IMG/VR virus record: IMGVR_UViG_3300032053_000681
Location: 1 to 20,158 of that record
Length of the DNA: 20,158 nucleotides
Strand: one strand, 5' to 3'
From: a virus
In this document: one piece after another, positions 2,452 through 20,158 of the stretch
Position numbering within the stretch: position 1 is the stretch's first letter
Layout of the letters: every line of letters begins with the position of its first letter
Made by a program: the position numbers and the translations under genes
Notes under the pieces: model-generated
What the model was told of the DNA's origin: nothing
Databases searched by the model: none
Seen by the model: only the letters and a program-made list of their open reading frames with translations

Positions 2452-3513
2452 ATGGTTATCGGTATTCCAAAAGAAACTAAGACAGATGAATATCGTGTTG
2501 GACTCCTACCGGCCGGTGCCAAAGTATTAACCCAGGCAGGGCATACAGTGCTGGTTGAGGCTAATGCTGGGCTTGGTGCTGGGGTCTACAACCAGGATTA
2601 TGAACGCTGCGGGGCGCAGATAGTTTCTGATATAGGGGAAGTCTATAGGCGTGCAGGATTGATTGTCAAGGTAAAGGAACCCCAACTACTTGAAATTGCC
2701 TTGCTGCGCCCATCTCAAATTCTCTTTGCCTATTTGCATCTGGCTGCCAATTGCCAATTGATAGAGGGACTTCTTAAGAGTGGTTGTACTGCGATTGCCT
2801 ATGAGACTTTAGAGGTCAATGGTCAGCTTCCGTTGCTCACGCCGATGTCAGAGGTGGCGGGCAGAATGAGTGTTCAAGAGGGAGCCAAATATCTTGAAGC
2901 ACCGCAAGGTGGCAGGGGCATACTATTGGGCGGGGTGCCTGGGGTTAAACCTGCTGAAGTCCTGATTCTGGGTGGTGGGGTGGTGGGATCAAATGCCGCC
3001 AAGATAGCTGCTGGTATGGGTGCCCAAGTGTATTTGCTGGATACCAATATGGATCGGCTGAGATACTTGTCCGACGTGATGCCAGCAAATGTTACTTTGT
3101 TGTTCAGTGACCGGAATACAATACTCGACCACATACAAACGGCTGATTTGGTGATCGGTGCAGTTTTGGTTCCAGGTGCCGAGGCTCCACATCTAATTAG
3201 TTGTAATGATTTGAGGTTGATGAAATCCGGTAGCGTGATTGTTGATGTTGCCGTGGATCAGGGTGGGTGTGTGGATACTACACATCCAACCACGCACCGT
3301 AACCCTACTTTTGTTATTGGCGGGGTACTCCACTACTGCGTGGCCAATATGCCTGGTGCCGTGCCACTAACAAGCACACCAGCCCTGTGTAATGTTACAC
3401 TGCCGTGGATTTTGAAGATAGCAAATCGGGAGTCCATACCAGACGGGGCAATGAACATTTGCGATGGTATAGTTACGAACGAAGCCGTGGCACGAACCTT
3501 TGGGTTACTATGA
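2452..3513 (+). CDS. ald: Alanine dehydrogenase (NAD+-dependent)
   Basis: The enzyme interconverts L-alanine and pyruvate plus ammonia with NAD+/NADH. The protein has 353 residues, slightly shorter than the usual 370 or so. It opens MVIGIPKETK and keeps the substrate-binding and catalytic residues in the places known for this family: Arg15, Lys75 (KVKEP), His96 (YLHLA), Ser133 (PMSEVAGR) and Asp269 (DVAVDQGG). The Rossmann nucleotide-binding loop is LILGGGVVGS (171-180). The conserved C-terminal HYCVANMPGAVP block is intact, so it looks like a functional enzyme. The gene overlaps the downstream epimerase by ATGA, implying coupled translation. Alanine dehydrogenase is not part of standard phage gene sets, so this is a candidate auxiliary metabolic gene. 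The related lysine-pathway and transhydrogenase families are less likely given the match to the signature blocks. Confidence 0.94.
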   Translation: MVIGIPKETKTDEYRVGLLPAGAKVLTQAGHTVLVEANAGLGAGVYNQDYERCGAQIVSDIGEVYRRAGLIVKVKEPQLLEIALLRPSQILFAYLHLAANCQLIEGLLKSGCTAIAYETLEVNGQLPLLTPMSEVAGRMSVQEGAKYLEAPQGGRGILLGGVPGVKPAEVLILGGGVVGSNAAKIAAGMGAQVYLLDTNMDRLRYLSDVMPANVTLLFSDRNTILDHIQTADLVIGAVLVPGAEAPHLISCNDLRLMKSGSVIVDVAVDQGGCVDTTHPTTHRNPTFVIGGVLHYCVANMPGAVPLTSTPALCNVTLPWILKIANRESIPDGAMNICDGIVTNEAVARTFGLL

Positions 3514-4439
3514 AAACATTGGTAACTGGTGGTGCAGGATTTATTGGCTCTAATCTTGTAGGGCAACTGTTGGCAGATGGTCACGAGGTGACAGTCCTAG
3601 ATAACTTTTTATCTGGACACTGTTCGAACCTTATGCCATTCCACAGGGCGCATCTCATTGTAGGTGATATCCGTGATAGCGGGGATGTCAGTAGGGCGGT
3701 CGAGGGAGCAGAGGTTGTCTTTCACTTGGCCGCATCAGTGGGGAACAAGCGTTCGATTGAACATCCAATTCTTGATGCCGAGATTAACGTGATTGGGACG
3801 CTCAAAGTTCTTGAGGCGGCACGGCGGGCTGGTGTTAGAAAGGTTGTCGCCTCTTCGTCGGCTGGAATCTTTGGCGAGTTGAAGACATTTCCCATTAAGG
3901 AGGACCATCCTGTTGAACCCGACTCGCCTTATGGATGTACTAAACTCTGCATGGAGAAAGAGTGTCTGGCGTACTCGAAGCTTTATTCATTGGAGGTCGC
4001 CTGCCTTCGCTACTTTAATGTTTACGGAGTCAACCAGCGATTTGATGCCTACGGTAATGTGATACCGATATTCGTGTTCAAGATATTGCGAGGGGAGCCT
4101 ATAACTATTTTTGGCGACGGCGAACAAACCCGCGATTTTTTGAATGTAAAAGACGTGGTTCAAGCAAACATTAAAGCTGCACAGGCAGTTGGCGTGTCAG
4201 GCGCATTCAACATTGCTAGTGGGAGTAGTGTTACGATCAACCGTCTGGCGAGTCTACTTTATTCAATCTCTGTTGCAGAACATTGTGTGGAGTATGGGAT
4301 ACCCAGGCCGGGTGACGTGATGCACAGCCTAGCGGACATAGGGGCAGCACGTAAAGTCCTTGGCTATGAGCCGAAAGTGTCGCTAGCAGATGGACTACGT
4401 GAATATGTTGCATGGGCAAAGTCGTCACAATTGCTATAA
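3510..4439 (+). CDS. NAD-dependent nucleotide-sugar epimerase/dehydratase
   Basis: This 309-residue extended short-chain dehydrogenase/reductase has the N-terminal NAD-binding loop TGGAGFIG (6-13), an Asp at the end of strand 2 (VLDN), the catalytic serines in SSSAGIFGE (115-123) and the YxxxK pair Tyr141/Lys145 (SPYGCTK). RYFNVYG (167-173) and FGDGEQTRDF (201-210) are typical of UDP-glucose or UDP-N-acetylglucosamine 4-epimerases and related enzymes acting on nucleotide sugars. Exact substrate specificity cannot be read from motifs. The start is ATG 3510, overlapping the ald stop (ATGA); an earlier in-frame codon inside ald is disfavoured because it lies upstream of the Rossmann start. A role in modifying surface polysaccharide or virion sugars is inference. 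Confidence 0.9.
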   Translation: MKTLVTGGAGFIGSNLVGQLLADGHEVTVLDNFLSGHCSNLMPFHRAHLIVGDIRDSGDVSRAVEGAEVVFHLAASVGNKRSIEHPILDAEINVIGTLKVLEAARRAGVRKVVASSSAGIFGELKTFPIKEDHPVEPDSPYGCTKLCMEKECLAYSKLYSLEVACLRYFNVYGVNQRFDAYGNVIPIFVFKILRGEPITIFGDGEQTRDFLNVKDVVQANIKAAQAVGVSGAFNIASGSSVTINRLASLLYSISVAEHCVEYGIPRPGDVMHSLADIGAARKVLGYEPKVSLADGLREYVAWAKSSQLL

Positions 4440-6900: not shown

Positions 6901-7090
6901 GAAAATTACATACCACCCGCATACGCCGCCACCATCGTTGACCGTTACTATTTCAAAGACGGCAGATGGTTCAGAAGACTATATGCAGATTATTAGCGCA
7001 GACCAGTTTACGTTGAACATTGTGTTACTTTCGCCGTCAATTGAAGTCAATGACTCACGTATAAAGATGGAGTCTAGTGATGATGACTAG
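6890..7090 (+). CDS. Small hypothetical protein
   Basis: This 66-residue protein starts MMTKKITYHPHTPPPSL and ends in an acidic tail (SSDDD). The alternating hydrophobic pattern suggests beta strands. The tandem ATG codons at 6890 and 6893 overlap the end of the previous gene; GGAAGG (6872-6877) is the nearest purine stretch. The same GATGATGACTA sequence occurs at this start and at the start of the next gene (7080), so the two junctions look alike. Function unknown. Confidence 0.5.
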   Translation: MMTKKITYHPHTPPPSLTVTISKTADGSEDYMQIISADQFTLNIVLLSPSIEVNDSRIKMESSDDD

Positions 7091-7658
7091 AGAAGAATAT
7101 CTAATTGCCTGCATCGAAGAGTTGCGAACCGACTTTATAAAAGTGGGGGCGGAACTCCCCTCGAAGATTCGCGTCTCCTGCGGTTGGCCCTCTAAAGGTG
7201 CCCTGGCTACGAAGCGCCAGCGGGTTGGTGAGTGCTGGAGTGCTACTTGTAGTGGTGATGAGACCTTTGAGCTTTTTGTCAGCCCTGCCTTGAAGGACAG
7301 TATTGAAGTTCTTGCAACGCTTGTACATGAAGCCTGCCATGCTGCTGTAGGTGTTGAGGCCAAGCATGGGTCGGCTTTTAGAAAGGTTGCCAAGGCACTT
7401 GGTTTAACAGGTAAAATGACAGAGACCAAGGCAGGTGATGAGTTGGTAGAAAGGTTGAAGCTACTTGTCGAGAAGCATGGGGAGTTTCCCCACGCCGAGT
7501 TGAAGCATAGTAATGCGCCAAAGAAGCAGACAACCCGCCTGAGACCTGTAGAATGCCCTGAGTGCGGCTATTTATGTAGAGTAACTGCTAAATGGTTGCG
7601 AGTTGGCCTACCAGTTTGTCCCTGTGGAACTGAAATGAGATCAGAAGAAGAAAGTTAA
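7080..7658 (+). CDS. SprT-like zinc metalloprotease with a C-terminal zinc ribbon
   Basis: This 192-residue protein carries the zinc-metallopeptidase signature HEACH (residues 83-87: two His ligands and the catalytic Glu) and a likely third ligand His96 in AKHGSAF, as in SprT/Spartan-type proteases. A C-terminal zinc ribbon follows: CPECG (159-163) and CPCG (180-183). Spartan-type enzymes degrade proteins crosslinked to DNA, and SprT-like genes are common in phages, but the substrate here is unknown. ATG 7080 is chosen as it lies 7 nt after GGAG (7069-7072); GTG 7077 and ATG 7083 are in-frame alternatives. It overlaps the previous gene. The active-site residues appear intact. Confidence 0.85.
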   Translation: MMTREEYLIACIEELRTDFIKVGAELPSKIRVSCGWPSKGALATKRQRVGECWSATCSGDETFELFVSPALKDSIEVLATLVHEACHAAVGVEAKHGSAFRKVAKALGLTGKMTETKAGDELVERLKLLVEKHGEFPHAELKHSNAPKKQTTRLRPVECPECGYLCRVTAKWLRVGLPVCPCGTEMRSEEES

Positions 7659-8853: not shown

Positions 8854-9196
8854 GGTTGAAAAATACTTCAGACTTGCAGCGCAAGTGGCTGAGCATGGTG
8901 ACAAGCTTCGTCAGTACAGGTTGGGCGCTGTTGGTATCAGAAACGACGGCGTGATTGTCACTAGCAGCAACACTCGTTGTCGGTCGCCACAGAAGCGGGC
9001 GCACGCTGAAACCCGTCTTGTGCGTAAGTTGAACCGAGATTCTGTCGTATTCGTAGTGAGAATACTGCGAAATGGGGCACTTGCGAACGCAAAACCGTGT
9101 CCAGACTGCCAAAAAGCACTCCGAGGACGCGGAATTAAGAGGGTCTATTACTCGATTGGCACTTGTCACTACGGAGTGTTGATATTTAATGAGTGA
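8846..9196 (+). CDS. Cytidine/deoxycytidylate deaminase-like protein
   Basis: The 116-residue protein has the zinc-binding signature of the cytidine-deaminase fold: HAETR (residues 53-57, with the His ligand and the proton-shuttling Glu) and KPCPDCQ (83-89, Cys85 and Cys88 as ligands). VYYSIG (100-105) matches the strand that follows in the family. Such phage enzymes often deaminate dCMP for dTTP synthesis, but the short length and the lack of other recognised nucleotide genes nearby leave substrate and role open, including deamination of nucleic acid. ATG 8846 overlaps the previous stop (ATGA). Confidence 0.8.
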   Translation: MSKVEKYFRLAAQVAEHGDKLRQYRLGAVGIRNDGVIVTSSNTRCRSPQKRAHAETRLVRKLNRDSVVFVVRILRNGALANAKPCPDCQKALRGRGIKRVYYSIGTCHYGVLIFNE

Positions 9197-9291
9197 ACAT
9201 CGGACGAATACGGCAAGTTCGTTTTCATGAGCAGCGTGAGAACGTACAACTCAAGTCTATGCCGTTGCCACCCCAATACAACAATGAGTAA
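9193..9291 (+). CDS. Possible 32-residue small protein
   Basis: GTG 9193 overlaps the deaminase-like stop (GTGA), and the frame runs to TAA 9289-9291, reading VNIGRIRQVRFHEQRENVQL then KSMPLPPQYNNE. The coupling junction is typical of the region, but the nearest Shine-Dalgarno-like GGAG (9172-9175) is 17 nt away. It would be the last gene of the second small-gene run. Low confidence. Confidence 0.35.
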   Translation: MNIGRIRQVRFHEQRENVQLKSMPLPPQYNNE

Positions 9292-9378
9292 CTAAAACTC
9301 ATAATATAGAATACCGACTATTCCCTAGTAAGACCACCGACCACCATTGACCACTACACCTCTGCCGCCCACATCCTA

Positions 9379-9412
9379 GTTGTGAGTTCTTGACTGCTGG
9401 TTGTGAGTTCTT
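9379..9412 (+). repeat. 13-bp direct repeat, 21 bp apart (operator-like)
   Basis: GTTGTGAGTTCTT occurs exactly at 9379-9391 and 9400-9412. The 21-bp centre-to-centre spacing equals two turns of B-DNA, so proteins bound to both would lie on the same face. This is typical of tandem operator sites. The binding protein is unknown. Confidence 0.6.
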
Positions 9413-9439
9413 TTGGCTTGCGGAATGTTTCTTCCCTGC

Positions 9440-9486
9440 TCTGGGCTGTTTAAACATATTCTAAACCTATTCTGGGTTGTTTAAAC
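9440..9486 (+). repeat. Two direct copies of TCTGGG-NN-GTTTAAAC-type element, 31 bp apart
   Basis: TCTGGGCTGTTTAAAC (9440-9455) and TCTGGGTTGTTTAAAC (9471-9486) differ at one base. Their 31-bp spacing is close to three helical turns. A related inverted version is at 6616-6629. Each contains the palindrome GTTTAAAC. Probably binding sites for a phage regulator or promoter elements; inference from repetition, phasing and position. Confidence 0.6.
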
Positions 9487-9578
9487 GATTTATTTGGGTA
9501 TTTTTCTACAAAATTTCCAGATTTTCTTAGAAAAATTGCCGTTTCTGGTGTCTGACTATAGATGGTGGGAATCTCTTT

Positions 9579-10133
9579 ATGCCGCAGGTCACAGACTTAG
9601 CCGATCCACGACGATGCCAAGCGGCGACTCTAAGTGGGCAGTGTCTAAATCTTGCAGAAGACGGGCGAGAGTTTTGCACCAGCCACCCCTACGGCAAGCG
9701 TGACATAGCTCCGCGACTAAAACAATATCTTCTTACGGACTCTGGTGAGGCTGGTCGTGTCGCCGCGTTTGCCGACAGTGAATCTGTCAAATCTCTGCGC
9801 GAGGTAAGTGCGATTGCTAATCGCGTCCTCGAACGTCTTCTTAATCTATCTCACACTGACATTGATTTCCTAGCCCATGCTGGGGCAATCGACCGACAAA
9901 TCAAAACTACTGTGTCGGCTGTCAAGACGATGGTCGAATTGGAAGAAAAAACAGGCTCAGTGCTCACGCAGGAGCAACTTTTAATACTTATTCGCTCCCT
10001 CTACGAGATAATGCACGAGGAATTGGAGGGAGTTGAAGGCCGGGAAGAGATCGAAGATAGAATTGGCGCTAGGTTTGCCCATAAATATTCCCAGCGACAA
10101 CAACTTAGATTGACAGACGAGACTGACAAGTGA
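9579..10133 (+). CDS. Putative terminase small subunit
   Basis: The 184-residue protein starts MPQVTDLADPRRCQA. It has a small Cys/His cluster near the N-terminus (RRCQ, GQCLN, FCTSHP, residues about 12-36), probably zinc-binding, followed by a long helical region (about 66-175) typical of phage small terminase subunits or other DNA-recognition proteins. It is the first gene after the 9292-9578 control region and heads the operon that contains the large terminase, the usual position of terS. ATG 9579 lies 9 nt after GGTGGG. No sequence signature proves the call. TerS proteins recognise the viral DNA and load the large subunit. Confidence 0.5.
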   Translation: MPQVTDLADPRRCQAATLSGQCLNLAEDGREFCTSHPYGKRDIAPRLKQYLLTDSGEAGRVAAFADSESVKSLREVSAIANRVLERLLNLSHTDIDFLAHAGAIDRQIKTTVSAVKTMVELEEKTGSVLTQEQLLILIRSLYEIMHEELEGVEGREEIEDRIGARFAHKYSQRQQLRLTDETDK

Positions 10134-10327
10134 TACGTGAATCGAGCGAGCACGCGAAACCTATCCGCTGTCGAAAGTGTAAGAAGATACGGGCCGCTTG
10201 TTACTACACAGTGGGAGACTTGTGTGAGGATTGTCAAATCGAGAACTACGTTCGCTACAGTGGCTACAGTCAGAATTGCAACTTAATGAGGACGGGTGAT
10301 GGTCCCACTAAAAAACGTAGAACTTAA
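10130..10327 (+). CDS. Small zinc-ribbon protein
   Basis: The 65-residue basic protein has two CxxC pairs, RCRKC (13-17) and LCEDC (31-35), forming a compact zinc ribbon, and a basic tail (TKKRRT). It starts at GTG 10130, overlapping the previous stop (GTGA), and its end overlaps the next gene by 29 nt. It could bind nucleic acid or a protein partner. Function unknown. Confidence 0.6.
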   Translation: MIRESSEHAKPIRCRKCKKIRAACYYTVGDLCEDCQIENYVRYSGYSQNCNLMRTGDGPTKKRRT

Positions 10328-10886
10328 GCCGGGCGATGTGATCGGTTTCTCTGGAACATCGGCTGTTAGTGATTTGATTAACGTCGTTACATACGGGATT
10401 CCAAGATTCGGGCTTAGTCACGTCGGGATTATGGGGGAGGCAACGGATGGTCGCTTACTGTTGTGGGAATCAACAACCCTCGATCCTCTTCCCTGTGAAA
10501 TCTCAGGCAAGGTTTTCAACGGGTCACAGGCTCACTTGTTACCCGATGTCCTTAAAGGATATAGCGGCAAGATGTGGGTGTACCCACTCTATAGAGACCT
10601 CTATGACGCGGAAAACAAACGTCTTACAGAATACTTAATGGACACTGTGGGGCTGCCGTATGACCAGATGGGTGCAATGCGGTCTGCGGGTATTGGATTA
10701 AGCTGGGTCGAGAGCTTACTTCCAGCACACGCAATTGAGAACGTGTATTGCTCTGAGTGGGTGAGCGAAGCCCTGGAGCACATTGGAGTGTGCCCCGCAG
10801 CGAATTTTAACCGATATTCACCAAACAGACTAATTCGCCGTCTTCACAAGGTTAGTATAGTTTGTCATCCAATGAGGCTAAAATGA
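10299..10886 (+). CDS. Permuted NlpC/P60-like (papain-fold) hydrolase
   Basis: This 195-residue protein has the layout of permuted papain-fold enzymes of the NlpC/P60 type (YiiX-like group): LKPGDVIGFSG near the start, the catalytic His41 in SHVGI, an acidic residue in WESTT (Glu57), and the catalytic Cys151 in YCSEWVSEAL. Such enzymes cleave peptide or amide bonds in peptidoglycan or other acylated substrates. The next gene encodes a holin-like membrane protein, so a role in lysis or wall penetration is likely. No signal peptide is visible. ATG 10299 follows GAGG (10288-10291) by 7 nt; GTG 10296 is an alternative. Its end overlaps the next ATG (ATGA). Confidence 0.8.
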   Translation: MVPLKNVELKPGDVIGFSGTSAVSDLINVVTYGIPRFGLSHVGIMGEATDGRLLLWESTTLDPLPCEISGKVFNGSQAHLLPDVLKGYSGKMWVYPLYRDLYDAENKRLTEYLMDTVGLPYDQMGAMRSAGIGLSWVESLLPAHAIENVYCSEWVSEALEHIGVCPAANFNRYSPNRLIRRLHKVSIVCHPMRLK

Positions 10887-11119
10887 AATACGTACTCGGC
10901 ATGGTTGCTTTGATGGTTGTGGTTGCTTCTGTTGTGGCTGCCTTGTGTGTGGGCGTGACCAATGGGTCAGCCTCGCTTCTGAATCTTGCGAACTCAACCT
11001 TATCAGGAATTGGGATTGCAATTGGGGGTATGCTTGGAAGTGCGCTGGTGCTACGATTTAAGTCTGCTCGCAAGTTTATCGGCAACGTAGTTCAAGACAT
11101 CCAGAATCATAGCAAGTGA
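10883..11119 (+). CDS. Holin-like small membrane protein
   Basis: The 78-residue protein has two predicted membrane segments, about residues 3-24 and 38-58 (SGIGIAIGGMLGSALVL), and a basic, polar C-terminal tail (RFKSARKFIGNVV). This matches class II holins, which let endolysins cross the inner membrane. It directly follows the papain-fold hydrolase (ATGA overlap; GAGG 5 nt upstream of ATG 10883), the classic holin-lysin arrangement. No holin family was identified by sequence, so the call rests on topology and position. Confidence 0.6.
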   Translation: MKYVLGMVALMVVVASVVAALCVGVTNGSASLLNLANSTLSGIGIAIGGMLGSALVLRFKSARKFIGNVVQDIQNHSK

Positions 11120-11123
11120 GTTT

Positions 11124-11672
11124 ATGCGTAACCTCCTCCTAGCGTTGATACTGCTGGCGTCAAGTTTTTCGATACGGCCCGCACTCAATGCAACGTCTAC
11201 AACTGAGCGTCCAACAGTCAATCTCCCTGCATCAATGCGGCAGGAGAATTGGTTGGGAAGGCGTGGTCAAGGTAGTTGTGTTTGGGCAAGCACCATCTCG
11301 CTTTTAAACTGGCAAGGTCGCTATAAGACAGCCGCCTTGATTCGGAAAACTTATGGTGATGGCGCAGGACCCGATGATTGGTCTCCTGCGATGGATAAGA
11401 TTGGCGTTAGATATTGTTTCACAACAAGCGGGGACGTAGCATTCTTGGATTGGTCTTTAAGAACGAGGCGGGGTGCGGCCGTTGTTGTGAACGGTGGACG
11501 GCACATGGTAAATCTTGTTTCGCTCGATGACAAGGTTGCCGGGTTACTCAACAACAATGATGTAGATCATATTCAGTACGTGTCACGTGAAACATTTCTG
11601 GCTGAATGGATTGCGAGCGGAGGCTGGGCTTTTTCTGTGCTTTACTCACCACACGCTCCGATGACAAACTAA
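11124..11672 (+). CDS. Secreted papain-fold (C39-like) cysteine peptidase-like protein
   Basis: The 182-residue protein has an N-terminal signal peptide (MRNLLLALILLASSFS, cleavage around residue 20-24). The mature part carries a papain-type triad pattern: Gln49/Cys52 in GQGSCVWAS, His127 in GGRHMVN and Asn143-145 in LLNNND, arranged as in C39-like peptidases. It is probably exported and acts in the periplasm or outside the cell; the substrate is unknown. It starts 4 nt after the holin-like gene, followed 24 nt later by another exported protein. The triad is inferred from spacing and motif shape. Confidence 0.7.
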   Translation: MRNLLLALILLASSFSIRPALNATSTTERPTVNLPASMRQENWLGRRGQGSCVWASTISLLNWQGRYKTAALIRKTYGDGAGPDDWSPAMDKIGVRYCFTTSGDVAFLDWSLRTRRGAAVVVNGGRHMVNLVSLDDKVAGLLNNNDVDHIQYVSRETFLAEWIASGGWAFSVLYSPHAPMTN

Positions 11673-11696
11673 TACTACCCTAGTGAGACTACCTTT

Positions 11697-12344
11697 ATGC
11701 GATACCTTTTAATGGTTGTTCTGCTTAGTTTATGTTCCCATTGTCTGGCCACTCCAATGGGCGGGGTGATTGCCAATGAACGCATTGTGCGACTTCCAGA
11801 AGATGGAACCAAGTTTTACATAAGCATTATTGGGGATAAAGCTGATGCCCGATACACCGAAGTTCTCGGCTGGTTTGAAAATGTTCCGAAACTAAAAGCT
11901 TTAAAGGGGCAGGTACATTTCATTCCTGTTACAACGGATACCGCGATCTATACTGAGCGGTATGAAAAGTCACTCAAGAGTGTACCGTCGGTGCGAGTCC
12001 AGAGTAACGACGGTACCGTACTTTATGAGGCGTGTGGCAACAAGCTACCAATGAGTGGCGAGAGTCTGTATAATGCTATTGCCACGGGCGTCAATGGCGG
12101 CGAGGAGTGGTTGCCCTGGCGACGTAAAAATCATCAACCCGACCCAATTGTACCAACACCCGTGGTGACACCTGATACTGATCCCGCCCCTCAACCTCTT
12201 GATGATGGGGAGATACCTGTGTTTGAACCAGTGGATAATCTGCCCGTGGCTTTGATTGCGGGGTGTGTGGTTGCGCTGATTGTTGGCCTCGTGGCCGGAC
12301 AGATTGAAAAGTCTAAGAAGATTCGAAAGATTGGCAAATCTTAA
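11697..12344 (+). CDS. Exported thioredoxin-fold-like protein with C-terminal membrane anchor
   Basis: The 215-residue protein has a signal peptide (MRYLLMVVLLSLCSHCLA), a domain (about 30-130) whose strand pattern and SVPSVRVQSNDGTVLYEACG segment resemble a thioredoxin fold with the cis-proline loop but without a CxxC active site, then a Pro/Asp-rich linker (148-183), and a C-terminal membrane helix (about 184-201) with a basic tail (EKSKKIRKIGKS). The topology places the domain outside the cytoplasm. A spanin-like role, spanning the envelope, is an alternative. ATG 11697 has only a weak site upstream. Confidence 0.55.
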   Translation: MRYLLMVVLLSLCSHCLATPMGGVIANERIVRLPEDGTKFYISIIGDKADARYTEVLGWFENVPKLKALKGQVHFIPVTTDTAIYTERYEKSLKSVPSVRVQSNDGTVLYEACGNKLPMSGESLYNAIATGVNGGEEWLPWRRKNHQPDPIVPTPVVTPDTDPAPQPLDDGEIPVFEPVDNLPVALIAGCVVALIVGLVAGQIEKSKKIRKIGKS

Positions 12345-12354
12345 GGGAGGATTT

Positions 12355-12783
12355 ATGAACATTGTAGTATCGGTAGCGTTGGTGATTGCATGTGTGTTGA
12401 TTGGCCGTGAGGCTGGCAAATGGTTATTTGGAGCCAAGAAAAATCTAACACACACACGTCGGTCTGCCTTGGCGCTGGCCGTTTCACTCCGAGAGATGGG
12501 CATGAAGCGTGTACCCGAAGTGATCGAGGAGTTAGCGGTTGGAGAGGTCTCCGACTTGCTTGAAGCACTTCGAGACATGTCAAAGTTGATGAAGGCCGGA
12601 AACGAAACGATCTTGAAAGAGCTAGAAGGAACCTTCGAGCGCGTCCTGGACGTGAAGCTATCGACACCAGAGGGGCGTGCAGTTGTCAAGGCTCGACTCA
12701 TCGAGGTTGAGGCCATTGTAGCAAAGGCTGCTATTGTGGCCGCTCCGTTTGCTAAGGCCGCTGTTGTTGCCGCACTGATATAA
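12355..12783 (+). CDS. Membrane-anchored helical protein
   Basis: The 142-residue protein has an N-terminal hydrophobic helix (residues 1-19, MNIVVSVALVIACVLIG), long charged helices that may form coiled coils (REMGMKRVPEVIEELAVGEV, then LLEALRDMSKLMKAGNETIL), and an Ala/Val-rich hydrophobic C-terminus (about 120-142) that could be a second membrane segment. ATG 12355 is preceded by GGGAGG (12345-12350), a strong ribosome binding site. No family is recognised. A part in envelope crossing, lysis or DNA ejection would fit its neighbours. Confidence 0.6.
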   Translation: MNIVVSVALVIACVLIGREAGKWLFGAKKNLTHTRRSALALAVSLREMGMKRVPEVIEELAVGEVSDLLEALRDMSKLMKAGNETILKELEGTFERVLDVKLSTPEGRAVVKARLIEVEAIVAKAAIVAAPFAKAAVVAALI

Positions 12784-12785
12784 GT

Positions 12786-13184
12786 ATGACTAAGCCAAAC
12801 TTTGTGTTGACCGTGTTGCTTCCCATCATACTGATGGTGGTTGCGATTGCCTGGACCAGAGGGCCTACCCCCAAGACAAATGTCACTGCTCCTGTAAAAG
12901 CCGAGTTGATAATTTTTTCCGCAACATGGTGTGGCGCTTGCCAGTTGATCAAGAATGACATTGATCAGATTGAGGCGTCTGGAGTCAAGGTCACAAGAGT
13001 AGACATAGACAAGCAACCAGAGTTGGCAGCCAAGTATCAGGTGATGAGTGTCCCTACGATGATACTAACTAACTGTGGACCACAGCACCGTAGTCTGGAA
13101 CGAACACAGGACATAGCGGATGTAATCAGATGGCTACGCGAGTTAAGACAAAGCGATGTGGTAACTGCCCACCAACTTCAGTAA
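12786..13184 (+). CDS. Membrane-anchored thioredoxin-like protein (CGAC active site)
   Basis: The 132-residue protein has an N-terminal membrane helix (about 5-23) and then a compact thioredoxin domain: IIFSATWCGACQLIKND (Cys49 and Cys52 in CGAC), VTRVDIDKQPELAAKYQV, and the cis-proline loop VMSVPTMI (Pro90). CGAC replaces the usual CGPC, which tends to shift redox potential. The anchor suggests an extracytoplasmic, membrane-tethered thiol-disulfide oxidoreductase, or a tethered reductase facing the cytoplasm. It follows another thioredoxin-fold-like exported protein two genes upstream, so the pair may act on disulfides of envelope or virion proteins. The 3' end overlaps the next gene by 55 nt. 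Confidence 0.85.
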   Translation: MTKPNFVLTVLLPIILMVVAIAWTRGPTPKTNVTAPVKAELIIFSATWCGACQLIKNDIDQIEASGVKVTRVDIDKQPELAAKYQVMSVPTMILTNCGPQHRSLERTQDIADVIRWLRELRQSDVVTAHQLQ

Positions 13185-13375
13185 AAGTCCCGAAGCCAGT
13201 TGGAGTTGTTGGTGACGAGGGGATTAAGATTTGGAATCAAGTGCTTTTCACGCTCAATAGTACGGTCGAGATGATATCAGGGTATACTACATTAGGAGTT
13301 CCGGGGACACCGGTGCCACAACTAAAGAAGATTGCTGCCCGTTTAAATGACCTCATTAAGACAATTGACAAATGA
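13130..13375 (+). CDS. Small hypothetical protein before large terminase
   Basis: The 81-residue protein starts MATRVKTKRCGNCPPTS with a CxxC pair, followed by a Val/Pro-rich stretch and a helical end (LKKIAARLNDLIKTIDK). ATG 13130 lies inside the 3' end of the thioredoxin gene and its stop overlaps the terminase ATG (ATGA), so translation is coupled to terL. It might be a packaging accessory, but nothing in the sequence proves it. Confidence 0.6.
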   Translation: MATRVKTKRCGNCPPTSVKVPKPVGVVGDEGIKIWNQVLFTLNSTVEMISGYTTLGVPGTPVPQLKKIAARLNDLIKTIDK

Positions 13376-15063
13376 GTAAGGTAGAATTGTACGAGTCACT
13401 GGCTGATGCGTTCCTAAGAGAGGTGACTACAGGGACGACGACAAAGTGTTCGGTGTGGGCAACCCGCCGTAGGATAATGGGCAGCCCCTTCCCCGGCCCT
13501 TACGGATTTTTACATCATCCTTGGTGCAGAGATATTCACGACAGTCAGGCAACGTATACAGTTGCAATGAAGGCTGCTCAAACGGGTGTGACAGAGGTTG
13601 GAATCAATCGCGCCTTTTACACACTGGATAAACTGAAACGCGATGTCCTTTACGTACTGCCAACAACGCTGGCTGCCGGAGACTTCAGTACTCATCGTTT
13701 TACCGGAGCGTTGAACCTTAGTCCCTACCTGACAAAACTGTTTGTAGCAACCAACAAGGTTCAGCTTAAGTCTACTGGCATCAACGTCCTCTATATTCGG
13801 GGGAGTCGCGGTAAGACGAACATGAAGTCCATTCCAGTATCAGAACTGATACTGGATGAGATTGATGAGATGTCGAGGGAGGCAGTCGGGCTGGCTTTAG
13901 AAAGATTGTCTGGTCAGGTTGAGAAGCATATCCTAGCACTCTCAACTCCGACGGTACCGCAACGAGGCATACATAAACTTTACCTAGAGAGCACGCAAGA
14001 GCATTTTACATTCAAGTGTCCATGCTGCGGGAAGTTTACGGAGTTGATCTGGCCGAACTGCGTAGAGGTTATTGGAGACAGCGTTAGTGATCCAAGATGC
14101 CATGAATCATTCTTGAAGTGTAAAGAGTGCGGCGGGAAGCTCGAACACTCAACGAAGACTGAGTGGCTGGCATCTGGCAAATGGCAGACAACAAACAAAC
14201 AAGTATCAAGAAAAGAGTCACGTGGCTTTTATATCAATCAACTGTACTCGTCCACTGTGACGCCGGGCGAGTTGGTCATTCAGTATCACCGTGGGATTGG
14301 TGACGAAGCGGCCAACCAGGAGTTCTTTAATAGCAAGTTGGGCCTGCCGTTCGTTGGAGAGGGTGCCCAGATTACTGACGAGATGATTGATCGGGCAGTC
14401 GGGGATCACAGTATCTCGGACCTGCGGCCAGCGACAAGCGAAGGACTACGGACGCTTGGATGCGATCAAGGTAAGATTTGCTACGTGTCGATTGTTGACT
14501 GGCGGCTGGGGAAGAACGCAGAGCTAGATATTCAAGCTGCGGCACGCGGTAAGTTGATTTGGTTCGGAACTTTCCTAGAGGATGACTTCGAGTATCTTGA
14601 TGAGCTTATGCGTGAGTGGCAGATTTTGGGGGCAGTGATTGATCTTGATCCACAGGTAAATGAGGTGCGGGAGTTCTGCCGAAGGTTTCCTGGTTGTGCG
14701 TGGGGCTCTCGCTACCGACGTGGACAGACTGCGAAAGAGTTGACAGTAAGCGACGAGGATACGGGCGCGCCGCTGGCAACCGTGGACCGAACCGCCTGGA
14801 TCAGTTGCGCCTTGGGAAGACTAAAAACAAACCCGCCACGACTAATACTGCCGAGAGACATATCCACAGAGTACAGAAGCCATTTGAAGTCGCTGTGCCG
14901 CTCATACGTGAGGGACAAGACAGGAAACTCGGTCGCCGAATATTTGACAACTGGCGGGCAGGATCACTTCAGTCACAGCCTAGTGTACGCAACAATTGGG
15001 TTGTCCTTGGTGGTGGACTCTGGTGTGTTGAATCAGAACCGTAACATAACTGGTGTGATCTAA
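13372..15063 (+). CDS. Terminase large subunit (lambda GpA-like)
   Basis: The 563-residue DNA-packaging motor and nuclease. The ATPase domain has the GpA-type Walker A variant MKAAQTGVTE (66-75) and Walker B ELILDEIDEM (158-167). A zinc finger follows: CPCCGK (216-221) and CKECGGK (250-256), usual in the GpA family. The C-terminal RNase-H-like nuclease shows metal-binding Asp residues in LGCDQG (Asp365), VIDLDP (Asp424/426) and GGQDHFSH (Asp531). The lambda relative moves DNA into proheads by ATP hydrolysis and cuts it to genome length. It starts in an ATGA overlap with the previous gene and its TAA overlaps the next ATG. All motor and nuclease motifs appear intact. Confidence 0.95.
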   Translation: MSKVELYESLADAFLREVTTGTTTKCSVWATRRRIMGSPFPGPYGFLHHPWCRDIHDSQATYTVAMKAAQTGVTEVGINRAFYTLDKLKRDVLYVLPTTLAAGDFSTHRFTGALNLSPYLTKLFVATNKVQLKSTGINVLYIRGSRGKTNMKSIPVSELILDEIDEMSREAVGLALERLSGQVEKHILALSTPTVPQRGIHKLYLESTQEHFTFKCPCCGKFTELIWPNCVEVIGDSVSDPRCHESFLKCKECGGKLEHSTKTEWLASGKWQTTNKQVSRKESRGFYINQLYSSTVTPGELVIQYHRGIGDEAANQEFFNSKLGLPFVGEGAQITDEMIDRAVGDHSISDLRPATSEGLRTLGCDQGKICYVSIVDWRLGKNAELDIQAAARGKLIWFGTFLEDDFEYLDELMREWQILGAVIDLDPQVNEVREFCRRFPGCAWGSRYRRGQTAKELTVSDEDTGAPLATVDRTAWISCALGRLKTNPPRLILPRDISTEYRSHLKSLCRSYVRDKTGNSVAEYLTTGGQDHFSHSLVYATIGLSLVVDSGVLNQNRNITGVI

Positions 15064-15218
15064 TGGCTAAGACGAAGGAAGAGAAGTCGGCTTCCAATAA
15101 AAAGTGGTATGAGGAGCATAAGGAAAGGGCGGCAGCCAATCATAAAAAGTATTATGAGGAGCACAAGGAAGAGATAGCGGCAAATAATAAAGCTAACTAC
15201 CAAGCAAAAACGTCCTGA
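15063..15218 (+). pseudogene. N-terminal part of frameshifted HNH endonuclease 1
   Basis: ATG 15063 overlaps the terminase stop (TAATG). The 51-codon frame encodes a charged, repeated helix (KKWYEEHKERAAANHKKYYEEHKEE), typical of the N-terminal repeats before phage HNH domains, and stops at TGA 15216. The protein-like continuation KRPERLAQKKKYASTRKEK is in the frame one base ahead, reached by skipping one A of the A5 run at 15206-15210. If the run were A4, a single 168-residue protein would extend to 15570. Confidence 0.65.
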
Positions 15219-15570
15219 GAGGCTTGCCCAGAAGAAAAAGTATGCCAGCACACGTAAAGAAAAATTGCATGAATACTCCTTGAAATATGCTCCCATAAAG
15301 TTGGTGAAGCGACTTAAAAGTACGTATGGGTTGGAGTGGGATAACTATGTTGCTCTTATTGAGAAACAACAAGGCAAGTGTGCGATTTGTGGTAAGTTAT
15401 GTGAGAAGCTTTGTGTAGATCACGATCACACGACGTGGGTCGTGTGTGGACTACTTTGTAGGAAGTGTAATACGGTAATTGGATTGTTTAGCGATGACAC
15501 TAATTTACTTGGGCGTGTTATACAGTATCTAAAGAAATATAAAGATGGGTGTGTGAAAGTAGTGACGTGA
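15211..15570 (+). pseudogene. C-terminal HNH (endonuclease VII-like) domain 1, frameshifted from its N-terminus
   Basis: This segment carries the catalytic domain: CAICGK then LCEKLCVDHDHTT and GLLCRKCNTVIGLF, the pattern of recombination endonuclease VII-type HNH proteins (Cys pairs for zinc, DHDH for catalysis). Many phage homing endonucleases use this fold and sit beside terminase or portal genes as here. It departs from the family and from its neighbour copy in reading TTWVVCGLLC where TGxVRxLLC is expected, losing the Gly and Arg. With the upstream frameshift this suggests decay. It may still start at TTG 15265. Confidence 0.7.
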
Positions 15571-15895
15571 ACCGTAATACTTATACTGATCTGTCAGGGC
15601 CGGTCGCAAACCTCAAAACGAAATAAGCTGGGAAAACAGTATAAAACGGCTTTATAGTATGACACGCGAGGAGTATGACGCGAAATTGTCAAAACAAGAT
15701 GGTGGATGTTTCCTGTGTAGTGCTACCAAGTCTCGGAGAGGTAATAAACATTTCTGCGTGGATCATGACCATAAAACCGGTTTAGTTCGCGCGCTACTTT
15801 GTCATAGGTGTAATACTGCCATCGGATTGTTTGGTGAGAATGTTGAACTGTTGAAGCTGGCCATTCAATACTTAGAGAAATATGCTGAGAAATAA
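15567..15895 (+). pseudogene. HNH endonuclease 2 (endonuclease VII-like), probably frameshifted near its start
   Basis: The catalytic part reads intact from 15659: MTREEYDAKLSKQDGGCFLC, CVDHDHKTGLVRALLCHRCN, then IGLFGENVELLKLAIQYLEK. It keeps both zinc Cys pairs, the DHDH core and the TGLVR loop. Coding sequence clearly extends upstream of ATG 15659 (NEISWENSIKRLYS), but that frame has no start codon. The likely start is GTG 15567, overlapping the previous stop (GTGA), reading NRNTYTDLSG in another frame. A -1 shift around GGGCCGG (15597-15603) would join them into a protein of about 109 residues. Read from ATG 15659 alone it is a 78-residue domain that could still be active. Confidence 0.7.
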
Positions 15896-15897
15896 AT

Positions 15898-18432
<2,535 letters not shown>

Positions 18433-18485
18433 CTGTGGGCAAATTACTGTGTGACCGATAGATACTTCCAGTCGAGGAGTAAAAT

Positions 18486-20158
<1,673 letters not shown>

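Follow-up and report, generated by a model that had tools for sequence, protein, structure and literature searches.

The closest described counterparts of the locus studied here are the holin–endolysin–spanin cassettes, and in phage T7 the Rz/Rz1 genes lie between the genes for the small and large terminase subunits (terS and terL). Its single proteins resemble C39-like peptidases, the Peptidase C92 family and thioredoxins. To our knowledge, no account has been given of how phages exit planctomycetes, and a search of the open-access literature found nothing relevant on a lysis or thioredoxin cassette of planctomycete phages. Here we describe a cassette from the IMG/VR virus record IMGVR_UViG_3300032053_000681 (20,158 bases; the whole record is called the window), in which six plus-strand genes are placed between a terS-like gene (9579..10133) and terL (13372..15063) and are followed by a seventh small open reading frame (ORF). 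An earlier note, made from the letters of this DNA, had described the six consecutive genes, and all the ORFs were confirmed. It remarked that the genes for lysis are often found elsewhere, but, as the T7 arrangement shows, this does not speak against a lysis function. The core of the cassette is a near-obligate trio of an exported peptidase (Pep), a degenerate thioredoxin (TrxA) and a helical membrane protein (memhel), with a C92-like hydrolase and a second thioredoxin (TrxB) as frequent partners; a small transmembrane (TM) protein is also a partner and not part of the core. From the gene order, the folds, the conservation of catalytic residues, the host phylum and the substitution by an analogous cassette, we read the locus as a cassette for late lysis or for breaching the cell envelope, adapted to the envelope of planctomycetes, a reading to which we give an even chance.

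The conservation of the cassette was followed across viral contigs. A scan with TerL gave 76 loci, and a second scan, with a broad alignment of pep, brought the number of pep loci to 105; several of the loci come from records that overlap on one contig, which makes the counts partly dependent on each other. Scans with single proteins gave few viral relatives for pep and trxB and none for trxA, and no sequence match to pep or trxA was found in 50,697 deposited phage records. Profile searches found the order TerS–C92–pep–trxA–memhel–trxB–(small ORF)–TerL–portal in about twenty long loci. Five of the six genes have homologues, mostly 30–60% identical, that keep their order across dozens of viral contigs, so that the six ORFs are real genes and not chance ORFs. 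Among the 103 pep loci with at least 2 kb downstream, the core proved to be linked rather than scattered: trxA adjoins pep in 100 and memhel lies within 3.5 kb in 93, and the sequence distances of pep and trxA are correlated (r 0.89). Meanwhile, trxB was found in 76 of these loci and not found near the other 27, and C92 is absent from several lineages. The envelope-directed, co-inherited cassette of the earlier note thus stands for the three-gene core, while C92, trxB and the holin-like ORF, which is displaced in relatives, come and go; the view that all six genes form one unit was rejected on these grounds. In one lineage (L050/L051, with pep at about 1197–1697 in L050; L and G numbers are our labels for the sequences compared), Pep seems truncated or frameshifted and trxA and memhel are missing, which is an apparent decay of the cassette.

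The trio was also found beside TerL proteins of other families (PHROG 38 and PHROG 2 types; L100/L101, L123, L135, L104, L078, L079, L180), where pep and trxA are accompanied by memhel or a similar protein with an N-terminal TM segment; L100/L101 lie on a 7.7-Mb planctomycete contig. In the main clade the trio belongs to the packaging/late region, in L100, L104, L123 and L135 it directly precedes TerL, and in L102/L103 it stands beside tail-like genes. Its place among packaging genes, and that of the set among head–tail genes in L105 and L134, would suit a role in virion maturation or DNA entry, in which the peptidase and its partners would be taken into the particle or would act on its proteins, for example by helping the genome to cross the envelope during injection. 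However, the signal peptides and lipoboxes direct these proteins to the producing cell's own envelope and not to the assembling virion, and we consider such a role very unlikely.

The gene pep (11124..11672, +) had been read in the earlier note as coding for an exported papain-type peptidase. No Pfam or PHROG match was found for Pep. Its AlphaFold2 model, based on 25 family members, reached a predicted local distance difference test score (pLDDT) of 87.9 and matched C39/ComA-type papain-fold peptidases of the PDB in a Foldseek comparison (2e-4), in agreement with that reading; hhalign against C39_2 members gave 72%. The closest named viral folds in BFVD were the endolysin of Gordonia phage OneUp, lysozymes of Synechococcus phages and Lysin A of a Mycobacterium phage, with individually weak matches (E 1e-3 to 4e-2). 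The predicted catalytic residues are Cys52, His127 and Asn143/Asn144, and in the homologues the Cys, the His and the Asp/Asn are each present in 103/103. The model, taken with this alignment, predicts a papain-like fold with a Cys-His-Asp/Asn set of catalytic residues. A simple lipobox pattern is present in the pep of 22 of 27 relatives and missing from the window copy, where an uncleaved signal anchor probably takes the place of the lipid anchor.

The gene trxA (11697..12344, +) encodes a signal peptide, a thioredoxin-fold domain without CXXC, a Pro-rich linker and a C-terminal TM anchor. The fold was seen in the AlphaFold2 model and in matches to PDB thioredoxins (1e-4), so the exported thioredoxin-fold protein with a C-terminal anchor was described correctly before. 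Among 106 homologues, CXXC occupies the active-site position in only 3, all from one Mu-like group (L105, L120, L121). The gene trxB (12786..13184, +) encodes a membrane-anchored thioredoxin with an N-terminal TM segment and CGAC at codons 49–52; the anchored thioredoxin named in the earlier note was recovered by Pfam (4.6e-14, 52.7 bits against a cut-off of 23.5), and all 101 aligned homologues have CXXC, mostly as CGPC or CAPC. A simple lipobox pattern was seen in the TrxB of 28/48 relatives, which makes TrxB look lipoprotein-like there, and is missing from the window copy. Both of the expected thioredoxin-fold membrane proteins therefore have the fold, but only TrxB has the redox motif, and the view that both are oxidoreductases was rejected. 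The gene memhel (12355..12783, +) encodes an N-terminal TM segment and a helical domain, as the earlier description of a membrane helical protein had it; no significant family match was found in Pfam or PHROG. The universal CXXC of TrxB and the catalytic Cys of Pep, placed in an oxidising compartment, would fit a redox or folding helper, with TrxB and TrxA maturing exported phage or host proteins (Pep, for example) and the peptidase acting in quality control. The absence of CXXC from 103/106 TrxA proteins and the pep loci near which trxB was not found speak against it, and this explanation appears improbable to us, on a level with that of a virion protein.

The slot between terS and terL is not left empty when the trio is missing. 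The TerL relatives that lack these three genes (L041, L046, L056, L059, L076, L086) carry upstream of terL a papain-pattern peptidase of ~330 amino acids, an exported thioredoxin and proteins with one or two TM segments, one of the set giving a weak Phage_holin_1 match; wherever terS is visible, this replacement set occupies the terS–terL slot. The replacement peptidase lies mostly behind a twin-arginine-like signal and has the invariant residues Q81, C86, H251 and N271-x-W-G (Q..GxC..H..NSWG pattern), while homology to Pep was not detected by hhalign (0.1%). The coupling of an exported cysteine peptidase to an exported thioredoxin does not seem incidental, because in these relatives the slot of the trio holds a papain-like peptidase that is not homologous to Pep and, again, a thioredoxin; this swap of one pair for another is the strongest sign that the pairing is functional. 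In the disulfide handling proposed in the earlier note, TrxA can have no part through an active-site CXXC, which nearly all homologues lack. In L046 (4771–7944), the replacement peptidase holds an intein directly after the catalytic GDC (Intein_splicing 3e-11, LAGLIDADG 1.5e-11).

The refilling of the slot also bears on superinfection exclusion or receptor remodelling, in which the anchored peptidase and the thioredoxins would alter envelope proteins, in the course of infection or in the lysogenic state, and so block the adsorption or injection of other phages. The proteins are indeed anchored, exported and enzymatic, many of them lipoprotein-like, and the phages are probably temperate: a serine recombinase-like gene (91–777; homologues in 11 relatives), followed by an AP2-like DNA-binding gene (779–1324), suggests a temperate phage, and copies are found on long host contigs (G001, G392). 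Genes for exclusion are, as a rule, morons that vary between phages and bring a promoter along. The cassette, however, was found neither as a variable accessory gene nor with a promoter of its own: the trio keeps its synteny within the packaging/late region of phages that differ widely, an analogous cassette takes over the slot where the trio is missing, and promoter- or terminator-like signals in 9000–16000 were not above the shuffled control. The alteration of a receptor or the blocking of other phages, which the earlier note had also offered, found no specific support, and we hold exclusion to be unlikely.

The C92 gene (10299..10886, +) was assigned to the YaeF/YiiX (C92)-like permuted papain-fold hydrolases. 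Its Pfam score of 13.7 bits (E 0.065) is below the gathering cut-off of 27, but it matches PHROG 1128 (8e-9), and hhalign gave 97.2% against genuine C92 members from planctomycete genomes and 0.1% for the negative controls, so that the permuted papain-fold hydrolase of the earlier note was upheld although it is sub-threshold in Pfam. The residues concerned are His41, Glu57 and Cys151, conserved as Cys in 81/81, His in 77/78 and Glu in 77/79 homologues, and the protein has no signal peptide. The next ORF (10883..11119, +) has holin topology, with two TM segments and a basic tail, and no family match in Pfam or PHROG. The ORF, called holin-like in the earlier note, is not conserved at this place, and its homologues sit elsewhere (L028:15882-16322(-), L106:936-1214(-) and also G396). 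Other small proteins, which combine a TM segment with a stretch that is charged or coiled, occur near the trio (L101/L123, L135, L170, L165/L167, L177, L185, L078); the one at L135:5570-5875 matches the holin PHROG 689 (5.8e-4), and in other phages the trio is flanked by small XhlA/BhlA-like proteins, whose matches are weak. The block shows an enrichment of small TM proteins within 700 bases (13/83 against 17/388, p 6e-4, without correction for relatedness). A BhlA-like protein with a TM segment and a coil lies several kb downstream of TerL in many longer loci (26 copies); it may serve the window clade as its usual holin. Exported trypsin-like proteases join the cassette in other phages (L165:5076-6047, L170:8400-9287, L171:5121-5990, L177:1147-2103; Trypsin_2 up to 2.5e-18).

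Judged from the genome contigs that carry the cassette, the host is a member of the Planctomycetota. When genome contigs were scanned with TerL, matches came from two metagenome-assembled genomes (MAGs) of Planctomycetota and from a single short contig assigned to an Anaerolinea bin (L085); in one of the two Planctomycetota MAGs, a 444-kb contig (L084) carries the complete cassette. The pep gene was found in 5/392 Planctomycetota genomes (one weak match left out) and in 0/301 genomes of the Anaerolinea phylum, an empty result that proves little without a positive control. A Chloroflexota host was judged unlikely, because L085 is a 63-kb contig whose MAG gave no pep match and the 301 genomes gave none. 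A pep-like match in G349 (5.9e-4) was not counted, as neither trxA nor phage genes are nearby.

In work cited in PMC2754498, the planctomycete wall has been described as a sacculus that is made of protein and contains disulfide bonds, and preparations of planctomycete walls contain cysteine-rich YTV proteins (PMC8567305). Planctomycetes also contain peptidoglycan (PMC4432640); the genes for its synthesis are largely dispensable in Planctopirus limnophila, and YTV proteins are restricted to one class (PMC10632474). We found YTV proteins encoded in 6/6 pep-bearing host genomes and in 42 of the 392 sampled Planctomycetota (p 1.1e-5 for the five pep hosts inside this sample). As a control, genomes with GpA-type terminases were YTV-positive in 2 of 10 cases; therefore, hosts without YTV proteins also harbour phages that package in this way. 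A more specific version of our reading is thiol-assisted proteolytic lysis, in which exported cysteine peptidases and a thioredoxin would dismantle a disulfide-linked YTV wall, instead of or besides peptidoglycan, and which would have evolved on two or more occasions, with peptidases that are not homologous; we regard it as doubtful. The nature and the load-bearing role of the planctomycete wall have been debated, and the cassette makes the question of which polymer holds the cells together testable. Its enzymes may be evolutionarily tuned against this envelope, the sampled bearers all being YTV hosts, and the cassette provides a means of recognising the phages of planctomycetes in metagenomes.

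For the late lysis or envelope-breaching cassette we infer a scheme that includes its timing, its substrate, lysis itself and every physical interaction. Pep would be exported and tethered, through a lipid anchor in most relatives and probably through the signal anchor in the window. TrxA would position Pep from the inner membrane, its thioredoxin-fold domain on the Pro-rich stalk serving as a binding or adaptor module and not as an oxidoreductase, and memhel, together with a small holin-like protein where one is present, would act at the inner membrane. The cytoplasmic C92 protein would be an add-on that gains access to the envelope after permeabilisation of the membrane; exported TrxB would be another, keeping the catalytic Cys of Pep reduced or opening disulfides of envelope proteins. 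Their joint action would weaken a protein-rich wall and release the progeny.

The search for lysis genes elsewhere agrees with this scheme. No amidase, lysozyme, transglycosylase, M15, M23, NlpC/P60 or CHAP domain was found in the relative G396 (~80 kb, 71 proteins, all 22 Pfam families) or among the best 25 of 28 Pfam families of G400 (~80 kb, 60 proteins), and no lysis family was seen among the best 25 of 33 PHROG families of the late genes of G396. Several points weigh against the proposed lysis function. These searches used Pfam and PHROG only, with 25/28 Pfam and 25/33 PHROG families considered, and covered mainly ORFs of at least ~90 amino acids, up to ~1.7 kb before the end of each contig; the contigs are perhaps incomplete. 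C39 enzymes with known function cleave proteins, not peptidoglycan. The holin-like ORF of the window is not conserved at its place in relatives, and the holin similarities are weak overall. The correlation between YTV proteins and the cassette is seriously confounded by host phylogeny, because of the restriction of YTV to one class. As for the redox part, some trio phages, such as L100 and L123, have a TrxA without CXXC and no detected trxB.

The borders and the surroundings of the cassette are as follows. The TerS-like gene has a weak PHROG TerS match (E 0.15), homologous ORFs in 25 relatives and a position that is kept in the longer ones. TerL was identified with certainty by its family matches (Pfam GpA_ATPase 5e-29; PHROG 675 2e-86), and the portal gene (15898..17781, +) matches PHROG 145 (9e-28). 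The small gene at 13130..13375 (+) overlaps trxB and terL and has same-place homologues in about 18–40 loci. The genes are tightly packed, with ATGA overlaps between C92 and the two-TM ORF (10883–10886) and between the small ORF and terL (13372–13375). Two tandem HNH-endonuclease-like ORFs fill the terL–portal gap (15265–15895); their relatives are inserted at varied sites, for example between pep and trxA in L011. By eye, adjacent alanine dehydrogenase-like and NAD-dependent epimerase-like genes, an unusual phage cargo, were recognised at 2452–4439, with no homologue among the fetched relatives, and a SprT-like zinc metalloprotease gene at 7077–7658, with homologues in L009, L012 and L028 (55% identity). 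Long collagen-like G-x-x repeat genes, which are tail-fibre-like, occupy 17781–20158 and continue beyond the end of the record.

Compared with described systems, Pep shares the papain-like fold and the invariant Cys/His with Asp/Asn with the C39-like peptidases (ComA/PCAT peptidase domains, the putative C39-like peptidase 3erv and phage endolysin/LysA domains). Unlike them, it is free-standing, exported or lipidated, 10–20% identical and outside Pfam, and it stands nearly always beside trxA and memhel. The window C92 protein has the permuted His-before-Cys order of the Peptidase C92 family (YaeF/YiiX permuted NlpC/P60 superfamily; PHROG 1128), but it belongs to a phage clade below the Pfam cut-off with conserved motifs of its own. 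TrxB shares CXXC and the fold with thioredoxins and thioredoxin-like exported lipoproteins, whereas TrxA keeps the fold, has lost the active site and has gained the Pro-rich stalk and the C-terminal anchor. With the holin–endolysin–spanin cassettes, the locus has in common the packaging/late position, a small membrane protein, an envelope hydrolase and anchored proteins reaching the periplasm. It differs from them in that no muralytic domain was recognised by Pfam or PHROG within the cassette, the likeness of Pep to endolysins being structural only, in that it has no Rz/Rz1 pair and in that its holin is not conserved. In place of the holin–endolysin–spanin components, this cassette has peptidases and thioredoxin folds.

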